64,000 bases of DNA from Hyalangium gracile (lineage in GTDB: Bacteria > Myxococcota > Myxococcia > Myxococcales > Myxococcaceae). The translations under genes and the position numbers were made by a program. Shown piece after piece: positions 24,815 through 62,968 of this stretch. How positions within the stretch are numbered: position 1 is the stretch's first letter; every line of letters begins with the position of its first letter. The stretch spans positions 62,001 through 126,000 of the forward strand of contig NZ_JAHXBG010000019.1 of assembly GCF_020103725.1 (NCBI RefSeq). Direction: 5' to 3'. The notes under the pieces were generated by a model. It was not told where the DNA came from. It saw only the letters and a program-made list of their open reading frames with translations, and did no database searches.

Positions 24815-25004
24815 GACCTGAACAGCCCTCCACCGTCAAGGCGCTCAAGGCGCTGGGAGCCACGAGATGGGGTGTCCTCACAGCGCACACCTACATCCCT
24901 GTGGCATCGGGGTCCAGACCTTATGTCAGACCCGCATGGCAGGTAAACCCCCGAAATAGTTGGGGCTTTTTTCTGATTGGCCCCCAAGCCCATTGACAAC
25001 GCCG

Positions 25005-59525: not shown

Positions 59526-60119
59526 TCACGCCTTGACGACGTAGACGCAGGACGAGTGGCCCTTCTTGCGGCACGGGTGGCTGTCGTCGTGGATGATGGA
59601 GCCCACCGCGTGCAGCCGCCTCAGCCCGCCGAACAGCATCCCCTTGTCGAAGGCGCACGGGTACGGGTTGTCGCTCTCCACCTCCACCGCGCCGTCCGGC
59701 CGCGTCTTCCACCGGTAGTGCCCGATGCCCTCCTTGATGCGGCCCGTCGTCGAGTCGAACATCGGCCGGCCGTTCTTGCGGTGGTGCAGGTGGTAGCCCG
59801 CGTCCATGCCCTCCATCATCGTCTTGATGTCCTTCACGCTCGGCAGCCACTCGACGTTCTTCATCACCGACACGCCGATCTGGTGCAGCACCGAGTCCCC
59901 CATGTGCTGACTGGCGCGCGCGAAGGCGCGCAGGAACGCGTCGAACGGGTACCAGGACTCTGGCTCCACGACGACCATCCCGTCCGGGCCCTTCTGGCCA
60001 ATGCCCTCCGCCAGCAGGATCTGGCTGGCGATGGACTTGAACTGGCCGAACGCCTGCACCAGCCCCAGCACGTTGCGTCCAGACACCTCGATGCCCTTGA
60101 ACTCGTGGAACGGAATCAT
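59526..60119 (-). CDS. Conserved-looking protein, possible V4R/heme-NO-binding-like sensor
   Basis: 197 residues from ATG 60119 (longer upstream frame is low quality). Features: MIPFHEFKGIEVSGRNVLGL, ESWYPFDAFLRAFARASQHM, SVMKNVEWLPSVKDIKTMME, GYHLHHRKNGRPMFDSTTGR, DNPYPCAFDKGMLFGGLRRL and the end PCRKKGHSSCVYVVKA. The pattern of an aromatic-rich helical half and a beta half ending in Cys pairs resembles V4R/heme-NO-binding or sensor folds, but I cannot assign it. Cytoplasmic. Convergent with the COX15 gene (25-base gap). Confidence 0.6.
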   Translation of the reverse strand: MIPFHEFKGIEVSGRNVLGLVQAFGQFKSIASQILLAEGIGQKGPDGMVVVEPESWYPFDAFLRAFARASQHMGDSVLHQIGVSVMKNVEWLPSVKDIKTMMEGMDAGYHLHHRKNGRPMFDSTTGRIKEGIGHYRWKTRPDGAVEVESDNPYPCAFDKGMLFGGLRRLHAVGSIIHDDSHPCRKKGHSSCVYVVKA

Positions 60120-60449
60120 GGCGCGGCTTATCCCCTCGGCAGCCAGGCTCACCCTTCCTCGTGCCCCGGTCTCCTCGACGTCGAAGCCCGCGGGCCGAGC
60201 GGCGCGATGATGGCACGGCTGCTCACTTCCCCACACCACCTGCCGGGTAAAGCCCCGAATGTCCCAGCTCGCGCCCCTGGCGTGTCTCACCCAAGGGCAC
60301 ATCCGGGGCCTTCCCGTTCAAAGATTTCTCATAAATGCGAACAGGTCGGAAAATGTGAATAGCGGGCAACGGTGGTGGTGGAATCTTCCGTTCCTCGGCG
60401 TTCCTGGTAGAAGGCGCCCGCCAAACCCGCCGTTACAGGGTGTTTGAAG

Positions 60450-60479
60450 TTGCCGCATCCTTACGTCGTACATTAGTAT
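60450..60479 (+). promoter_or_regulatory. Promoter-like sequence for the orphan transcript
   Basis: TTGCCG (60450-60455) and TAGTAT (60474-60479) with an 18-base spacer; TTGAAG (60444-60449) is an overlapping alternative. Predicted start about 60487. This is the only -35/-10-like pair I see ahead of the structured region that ends in the terminator at 60606-60668. Confidence 0.4.
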
Positions 60480-60486
60480 CTGAAAT

Positions 60487-60668
60487 AGATGAGCCAATCC
60501 CAGACATGGGGGTTGATTCAGAGCCACCCGCACGCGGACACCCGGGGGCGAGTGATGGGCGGTAGGCCATCACAGCAGTCCGCACCCGAGTGGGGTGGGT
60601 AGTGCGCAGCGGGCATGCCCTTCTGCATCCTCGGGGGATGATGCAGAGGGGGCCCGCTGCGGTTTTTT
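60487..60668 (+). ncRNA. Candidate structured small RNA
   Basis: About 180 bases in a 650-base gap with no gene (60120-60769; the left part 60120-60443 holds only A+T-rich sequence). Nested helices: GCGGAC (60534-60539)/GTCCGC (60578-60583) enclose GTGATGG (60552-60558)/CCATCAC (60567-60573). Then comes a terminator hairpin GCAGCGGGC (60606-60614)/GCCCGCTGC (60652-60660), with an inner TCTGCATC/GATGCAGA stem, followed by six T (60663-60668). Start end is taken from the promoter-like sequence. Boundaries are approximate. It may instead be a leader element of the histidine kinase gene. Pxr, a developmental sRNA of these bacteria, is one comparison to test. Confidence 0.5.
60606..60668 (+). terminator. 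Intrinsic terminator with U-tract
   Basis: Long nested stem: GCAGCGGGC/GCCCGCTGC outside, TCTGCATC/GATGCAGA inside, then GG and TTTTTT at 60663-60668. It is the only hairpin in the window with a clear T-tract, and it points in the + direction with no annotated gene upstream on that strand. Confidence 0.75.
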
Positions 60669-60769
60669 GCGGCGAGGCCTCCTGACGGATGTGTCTCGAA
60701 GCCACCGCACGGCGTGACAGAGACGGCGCGGCTCGGGGGTTCAATGGTATCTGGCTCTCCCCCCATCTC

Positions 60770-62968
60770 GTGAACGCGGCCTCTCTCCCTCCCACCAAGC
60801 GCATCCCGTTGACCGCCCTCGCGGTGCTGGTCGTCGCGCTCCTGCTGGCGGCCGCCTGCACGGCGTTCTTCCTGGTGACCGCTCGGAGCCGGGACGCCAC
60901 CCGCTTCGAGGGTCAGGTGCAGATGACCCAGGACCGGATCGCCGCCCAGCTGGATGCGGACATCACCCTGCTGCGCGGGGCGGCGGGCTTCTTCTCCGCC
61001 AGCGAGTCGGTCAACCCGCAGGAGTTCCGCATCTACGTCCAGCGGCTGGACGTGAAGCGGCATGATCCGGGCGTCCAGGGCCTGGGCTTCAGCCAGCGCA
61101 TCCTGGCGCGCGAGAAGGAGGCCTGGGTCTCCCGGCTGAGGGCCGAGGGGCTGGCGGACTTCCACCTCTGGCCCGAGCAGGCCCGCGAGGAGTACCACGC
61201 CATCATCTACCTGGAGCCGCTGGACGAGCGGAACGAGGCGGCGCTGGGCTACGACATGTTCACCGAGCCCATCCGCCGCGAGGCCATGGAGCGGGCCTGG
61301 CGCACCGGCGAGCCGGCGCTGTCGGGCAAGGTCATCCTCAAGCAGGAGATCGACGTGCGGCAGCAGGCGGGCTTCCTGCTGTACGTGCCGGTGTACAGCA
61401 GCGGCCCGGTGCCCTCCTCCGAGGCGGAGCGCATGGAGAAGCTGGTGGGGTTCGTCTACAGCCCCTTCCGGGTGAAGGACCTGTTCGACGCGATGTTCCC
61501 GCCCGATCATCAGCCGCGCGTCTTCTTCCGCGTCTACGACGGCCCGGAGGCGCGAGCCGAGCAGCTGCTCTATGACTCGGCCGACGACGACACGGAGGGG
61601 CAGCGCGCGTCCCCGCGCTTCACCCATACCTGGCACATGGAACGCGCCGGGCGTGTGTGGACCCTCGTCTTCACCTCGCGGCCCTCGCTCGAGCGCTCCA
61701 TGCTGACGCAGTGGGTGCCCGCCGTCGGGGTGCTGTGCCTGCTGCTCAGCCTGATGGTGTTCTCCGTGGCGTGGACGCAGGTCACCGCCCGGCAGCGCGC
61801 CGAGGCCAACGAGGAGGAGCGGGCCCGGCTGCTGGCGCGGCAGGTACAGGCGCGCCGCGAGGCGGAGGCGAGCCGCGAGGAGGCCCGGCGCAGCGCGGAG
61901 CAGCTGCAGACCATCACGGATGCGCTGCCGGCGCTCGTCGCCTACGTCGATGCGGAGGAGCGCTACCTCTTCGCCAACCAGGCCTATGAGACATGGTTCG
62001 GCCAGAAGCCCGCGGAGGTCGTCGGCAGGTCCGTGCGAGCGCTCATCGGAGAGCAGGCCTACGCGCGCTTCCGGGACCCCATCCAGCGGGCCCTGAAGGG
62101 AGAGCTCGTCCGCTACGAGGGCTCGCTGGCGCTGAAGAACGGCGGCACGGTGTACACCGCGTCCAGCTACATCCCGGATCGGGATGCCGAGGGCCGGGTG
62201 CGCGGGTTCGTGGTGCTCGCGCCTGACATCACCGAGCGCAAGCAGGCGGAGGAGGCCGCGCGCAGCGCCGTGCGGCTGCGTGACGAGTTCCTCTCCGTGG
62301 CCAGCCACGAGCTGAAGACGCCGCTGACGTCCCTGAGCCTCAAGCTCCAGACGCTCGCGCGCGACGCCGCGGCCCAGCCCGACTCGCCGTTCGTGCTGAA
62401 GGTGCGGGCGCACGTGGAGACGGGACGCCGGCAGGTCAAGCGACTGTCGGAGCTGATCGGCGACCTGCTGGACGTGTCGCGCATCAGCTCCGGAAAGATG
62501 AAGCTCCACTGGGAGCCCGTGGACTTCGCCGCCGTGGTGCGCGAAGTGGCCTCGCGGCTGGAGCCCGAGGCCACCCGGGCGGAGTCCCGGCTCACCGTGG
62601 AGGCGCCGGAGACGCTACCGGGGAGCACGGACCGGCTGCGGTTCGAGCAGGTGGTGGAGAACCTGCTCACCAACGCCATCAAGTACGGGGCCGGCCAGCC
62701 CATCCACGTCCGGCTGGAGGCGGGCTCCGAGCGGCTCATCCTCACCGTCCAGGACCGGGGCATCGGCATCGCGCTCGAGAACCAGGCCCGCATCTTCGAG
62801 CGCTTCGAGCGCGCCGTGTCCGAGCGGAACTACGGCGGCCTGGGGCTGGGGCTCTACATCACCCGGACCATCCTGGAGGCCCTGGGAGGCACCATCCGCG
62901 TGAAGAGCGAGCCCGGTCAGGGCGCCTGCTTCACGGTGGAGTTGCCTCGGGAGCCGCCAGCGCCATAG
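60770..62968 (+). CDS. CHASE-PAS sensor histidine kinase
   Basis: 732 residues from GTG 60770, chosen because the membrane helix then starts near residue 13; ATG 60689 would add 27 residues and lies only about 20 bases after the terminator. Order: TM helix, extracellular CHASE domain (about 50-285; FRIYVQRLDVKRHDPGVQGL, GFSQRI, LGYDMFTEPIRREAMERAWR), second TM (about 305-330; VGVLCLLLSLMVFSVAW), coiled-coil linker, PAS (about 385-495), HisKA with His513 in SHELKTPLTSLSLKL, HATPase with NLLTNAIKYG, DRGIGIALEN and GGLGLGLYI. No response regulator adjacent. Ends overlapping the convergent SpoIID-like gene by 52 bases. Confidence 0.88.
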   Translation: MNAASLPPTKRIPLTALAVLVVALLLAAACTAFFLVTARSRDATRFEGQVQMTQDRIAAQLDADITLLRGAAGFFSASESVNPQEFRIYVQRLDVKRHDPGVQGLGFSQRILAREKEAWVSRLRAEGLADFHLWPEQAREEYHAIIYLEPLDERNEAALGYDMFTEPIRREAMERAWRTGEPALSGKVILKQEIDVRQQAGFLLYVPVYSSGPVPSSEAERMEKLVGFVYSPFRVKDLFDAMFPPDHQPRVFFRVYDGPEARAEQLLYDSADDDTEGQRASPRFTHTWHMERAGRVWTLVFTSRPSLERSMLTQWVPAVGVLCLLLSLMVFSVAWTQVTARQRAEANEEERARLLARQVQARREAEASREEARRSAEQLQTITDALPALVAYVDAEERYLFANQAYETWFGQKPAEVVGRSVRALIGEQAYARFRDPIQRALKGELVRYEGSLALKNGGTVYTASSYIPDRDAEGRVRGFVVLAPDITERKQAEEAARSAVRLRDEFLSVASHELKTPLTSLSLKLQTLARDAAAQPDSPFVLKVRAHVETGRRQVKRLSELIGDLLDVSRISSGKMKLHWEPVDFAAVVREVASRLEPEATRAESRLTVEAPETLPGSTDRLRFEQVVENLLTNAIKYGAGQPIHVRLEAGSERLILTVQDRGIGIALENQARIFERFERAVSERNYGGLGLGLYITRTILEALGGTIRVKSEPGQGACFTVELPREPPAP

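Follow-up and report, generated by a model that had tools for sequence, protein, structure and literature searches.

In the literature that we found, Pxr is the only myxobacterial small RNA for which a role in development is known. This developmental RNA of Myxococcus xanthus is about 108 nt long, has a predicted sigma-54 promoter, and carries a C-rich loop in SL1 (PMC5568312, PMC5684412); a single C-to-A change in that C-rich first loop abolishes Pxr function in M. xanthus (PMC5568312). The first-pass annotation of a 64,000-nt stretch of the Hyalangium gracile genome, here called the window, had set Pxr beside an orphan structured transcript lying upstream of a sensor kinase gene. Using a Pxr sequence that we reconstructed from primers and a probe in the literature (PMC5568312), we obtained chance-level matches only, and we reject the identity of the two. 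The true pxr gene of this genome lies on another contig (G000:C6:524433-524535, L035); it is 94% identical to published Pxr and has the SL1 loop CCCCCCCACCCC. Tandem pxr copies occur in other genomes, four in G013 and five in G034. The context of pxr, which is found next to nla19/pxrR, also differs from that of the element described here, which sits between an uncharacterised gene adjoining COX15 and the sensor kinase gene. A sigma-54 promoter (GG-N10-GC) was considered and rejected as well: TTGC is conserved in the alignment of eight loci, but no GG stands at a fixed spacing from it. What the putative RNA shares with Pxr is the general character of an independent, intergenic myxobacterial small RNA with several hairpins, the last of them long, GC-rich and of the terminator type, and both are found in genomes of the family; it differs in its length of about 180 nt, its sigma-70-like promoter, its G-rich linker, and its locus.

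The element consists of a promoter-like block, a folded body, and an intrinsic terminator at 60449-60668 on the + strand. The promoter core (60449-60479) has the form GTTGC-N6-CTTAC-N7-ATTAG, with GTTGC at 60449-60453, CTTAC at 60460-60464, and CATTAG at 60471-60476; we read it as a -35 hexamer TTGCCG (60450-60455) and a -10 hexamer TAGTAT (60474-60479, overlapping CATTAG) separated by an 18-nt spacer. Transcription would start near 60485-60489, giving an RNA of about 180 nt (60486-60668; 158-188 nt across the homologues). Within it we recognise a 5' hairpin of 11 pairs, UGAG.CAAUCCC-loop-GGGGUUG.UUCA (60490-60520); a predicted middle hairpin, GUGAUGG...CCAUCAC (60552-60573), the pairs of which are kept in G006 and G002; a linker, GGGUGGGYAGYG (60593-60604), in which GGGUGGG is invariant in all eight loci; and a terminator (60606-60668) built of an outer stem (60606-60614/60652-60660), an inner stem, a UC-GGGG-GA tip, and TTTTTT at 60663-60668. 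The fold of a 195-nt RNA has a predicted free energy of -102.6 kcal/mol against a mean of -81.1 for shuffled sequences (z -4.78), and none of 200 shuffles was equally stable; z scores of the homologues run from -4.1 to -6.7, the four genomes concerned, window included, all giving stable folds. The promoter-like pair, nested helices, and long stem with its T6 tract that the first-pass annotation had described in + orientation are located where it placed them. Its further statement that this is the only strong terminator of the window is nearly correct. When the 23 T-rich tails found on either strand of the window were compared, the hairpin ranked first at -46.9 kcal/mol, ahead of one of -35.6 kcal/mol whose tail is merely TTCTTCTT, but there is a weaker canonical terminator at 24967 on the + strand (24949-24972, a 6-bp stem CCCCCGAAATAGTTGGGG followed by TTTTTT). 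A simple consensus scan of the window missed both the promoter and the terminator of the small RNA, because the hexamers are loose and the stem is long and bulged. The promoter motif has no second exact copy in the genome, and the single match at 2 mismatches equals the control level. A regulon sharing the motif was considered and rejected, the 0-mismatch match being at this locus only.

With a 401-bp query we found one copy in the genome itself and seven homologues among 97 relatives, six in other Hyalangium genomes and one in another genus of the family. The element occupies the corresponding, syntenic place in all eight genomes, that is, in all seven examined of Hyalangium and in one of the neighbouring genus. 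A covariance model of the 3' module recovers the same eight genomes at 98-107 bits, with no credible copy in the other 88 genomes of the family or elsewhere in a 147-genome sample of the class. Laxer filters applied to 36 genomes added chance-level hairpins only; the best of these sub-threshold matches, in G100 (L025), proved on inspection of its sequence to be an unrelated chance hairpin. An exact pattern search found no match to the element in a viral collection. When an orthologous empty locus was sought in other genera, the gene neighbouring the RNA had no clear orthologue outside the group. The restriction to Hyalangium and one neighbour makes the element a test object for how such RNA genes arise in a lineage.

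Only two blocks of the locus are conserved. In the alignment of the eight loci, 10 of 20 columns are invariant in the promoter core (60460-60479) and 50 of 60 in the 3' module (60600-60659); for most stretches of the flanks and the middle the count is 0-2 of 20. Within the core, GTTGC and ATTAG are present in all eight loci, the central motif reading CTTAC in six and CTAAC in two. The 3' module, about 80 nt long, starts sharply at GGGUGGG, continues with YAGYGNGCAGCGGGC, and then extends through the terminator hairpin, arms and tip included. The conservation of these two blocks in eight genomes is the strongest evidence that the element is more than chance. Between them the sequences fall into a group A (the window, G006, and G002, with G020 similar) and a group B (G001, G003, G004, and G005); the middle region differs between the two groups, and in both the hairpins are kept and the folds stable. 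The 5' hairpin of group A has 93% of its cells paired across four genomes, with three pairs changed on both sides, compared with 51% paired and at most one doubly changed pair in slid controls. All pairs of a 15-bp hairpin of group B are kept, its tip pair being seen as G-U, G-C, C-G, and U-A, and 39 of 500 shuffles score as well as the group B hairpins; G003 keeps the outer stem of the first hairpin and lacks its inner portion. Covariation is limited because there are only eight homologues, and with so few sequences a conserved RNA fold is supported, not proven. The suggestion of a small RNA of about 180 bases gains support from the conservation of a promoter-like core and a terminator, from the predicted structure, and from the compensatory changes.

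An intrinsic terminator at the 3' end is what one expects of a trans-encoded small RNA, and the hairpin might have no function beyond termination: a transcription terminator, or a palindrome acting as DNA, could serve the neighbouring genes without any functional RNA. The arrangement in group B, with a co-directional MATE gene upstream of the hairpin and a convergent gene directly adjoining it, would suit such a role. Against it, the promoter core is conserved and so are the 5' hairpins, with compensatory changes; the divergent orientation of the upstream gene in the window group, too, leaves nothing else on the + strand to be terminated. We consider this explanation very unlikely. Nor is the constraint on the 3' module solely for termination, since conservation sets in at GGGUGGG, 13 nt upstream of the terminator stem. 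In four homologues the U-run is weak (GGGUGUU). Both arms of the hairpin are nearly invariant in all eight genomes, and compensatory change is almost absent from them. Such invariance of arms and tip, which exceeds what termination or pairing needs, speaks for a second possibility, namely that a protein recognises the 3' hairpin as sequence-specific double-stranded RNA and that the RNA does not act by base pairing. We regard this as unlikely, if still deserving attention, because the invariant block includes linker bases that lie 5' of the stem, CsrA was not found in the genome, and no known family of protein-binding RNAs matches.

The genes around the element bear on whether it is transcribed for its own sake. 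Directly 3' of it, on the same strand, the window encodes a sensor histidine kinase (CHASE-PAS-HisKA-HATPase by Pfam; 60770-62968, +), for which a GTG start at 60770 is more likely than an ATG at 60689; in the longer frame, homology to relatives sets in at about residue 19-34. The first-pass annotation had offered a leader of this kinase as an alternative to a small RNA, and a cis-acting leader or attenuator is indeed what the order of genes suggests in the window, G002, and G020, where the kinase gene comes immediately after the RNA in the same orientation. In group B, however, a MATE gene lies upstream, a gene for a mechanosensitive channel converges on the RNA right after the terminator, and the kinase is further on; in G006 a convergent Band-7 gene takes the same place, again with the kinase further on. 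The next gene is therefore convergent in five of eight genomes (G001, G003, G004, G005, and G006) while the RNA is conserved regardless, and synteny refutes the leader as a general role. The kinase gene, moreover, is preceded by what appears to be a conserved block of its own, TTCAATGGTATCTGG (60740-60754, +), which lies outside the RNA, after its terminator, is near-identical in G002 and G020, and is probably the promoter of the kinase gene. We find the leader reading barely tenable. Since the RNA and its promoter persist while their neighbours change, they probably form a transcription unit of their own. The upstream gene (59526-60302, -; start between about 60120 and 60302) adjoins COX15 and is uncharacterised. 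Its product is a conserved protein that matches no Pfam or NCBIfam family and distant paralogues of which occur in many genomes of the family, with three tandem copies in L010.

A protein-coding role can be judged from a 37-codon open frame inside the RNA (60489-60602, +). Its ATG lies near the inferred start of transcription, and in four genomes it closes with the invariant GGGTAG, as might be expected if the transcript were a small leaderless mRNA encoding a peptide 37-39 residues long. The codon comparison indicates otherwise: relative to G002 there are 0 synonymous and 13 non-synonymous codon differences, in four of the eight genomes (G005, G003, G006, and G020) the homologous frame is either shifted or cut short by an early stop, and the peptides of groups A and B are unrelated. 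We judge the frame to be non-coding and reject a small protein gene at 60489-60602 for want of a coding signature; a small mRNA is accordingly highly improbable.

Comparison with known RNAs gave no name to the element. None of 4227 Rfam families matched the window or the seven homologous loci at the gathering threshold, and the weak matches of window and homologues, to microRNA hairpins and similar families, did not rise above chance. 6S RNA, which resembles the Hyalangium element in being a GC-rich folded RNA of similar length, was considered and rejected: RF00013 does not match at the element, and the genome's own 6S RNA lies at G000:C11:244018-244211 (57.3 bits). The element agrees better with trans-encoded small RNAs in general, with which it shares a promoter-like sequence of its own, an intergenic position, hairpins, a Rho-independent end, a short most-conserved stretch outside a stem, and a narrow lineage; unlike them, it has a terminator hairpin that is unusually invariant in sequence, and it belongs to no recognised family. 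We take the element to be a real, conserved small-RNA gene, restricted to a lineage, of a known general kind but without a family name; its product is probably a new regulatory RNA.

We therefore favour, with a probability of roughly 0.6, an independent small-RNA gene with its own sigma-70-like promoter, the product of which acts in trans by base pairing through its 3' module. RNA polymerase would start at the conserved promoter (60449-60479) and produce an RNA of about 180 nt that ends at the hairpin and U-run of 60606-60668. The 5' and middle hairpins would be tolerant scaffolding, and the functional part would be the invariant 3' module, which comprises the long hairpin of the terminator and, before it, the GGGUGGGYAGYG linker. 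Through this linker, a candidate seed region, the RNA would most likely pair in trans with one or more other RNAs that carry C-rich sites. Such pairing would proceed without Hfq or CsrA, since neither family was found in the genome in a search that did detect control families. A second independent RNA gene with an invariant, pairing-like module should be a useful test object for small-RNA regulation where Hfq and CsrA are not found.

What the linker might pair with can be approached from its sequence. Its 12-nt complement, CRCTACCCACCC, is no commoner than the control, and the sites in two genomes are not orthologous, so that this single-motif search found no conserved target. The predicted probability that the linker is unpaired is 0.46-0.82 in group B, 0.06 in the window species, and 0.03 in G006; its pairing in the window species may represent an internal locking, or it may count against the seed idea. 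The sequence CCACCCG at 60525-60531, in the 5' domain of the RNA (CCRCCC in seven of eight loci), could pair with GGGUGGG as such a lock. In each of the eight genomes the linker also finds a perfect complement of 7-8 bp in the C-rich first loop of Pxr, and in five of them GGGUGGG is extended to GGGGUGGG, which could pair with the SL1 loop CCCCCCCACCCC. One could imagine from this that the RNA is a natural sponge of Pxr, which by holding the SL1 loop through GGGUGGG would release fruiting-body development in Hyalangium. We consider this a long shot; random segments of the window pair equally well with the Pxr loop in 39 of 400 trials (about 10%), and the sponge is for that reason a lead only; the predicted burial of the linker in the window species also speaks against it.

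A further short motif lies upstream of the promoter. A TTCCG box at 60386-60390 (+), about 95 nt before the inferred start, is kept in seven of the eight loci, and 6 of 20 columns are invariant in the stretch that contains it, against 0-2 in the adjacent stretches. Around the box the genomes of group B are nearly identical over 15 bases (AAAACTTTCCGTCTG); it is a possible activator site.
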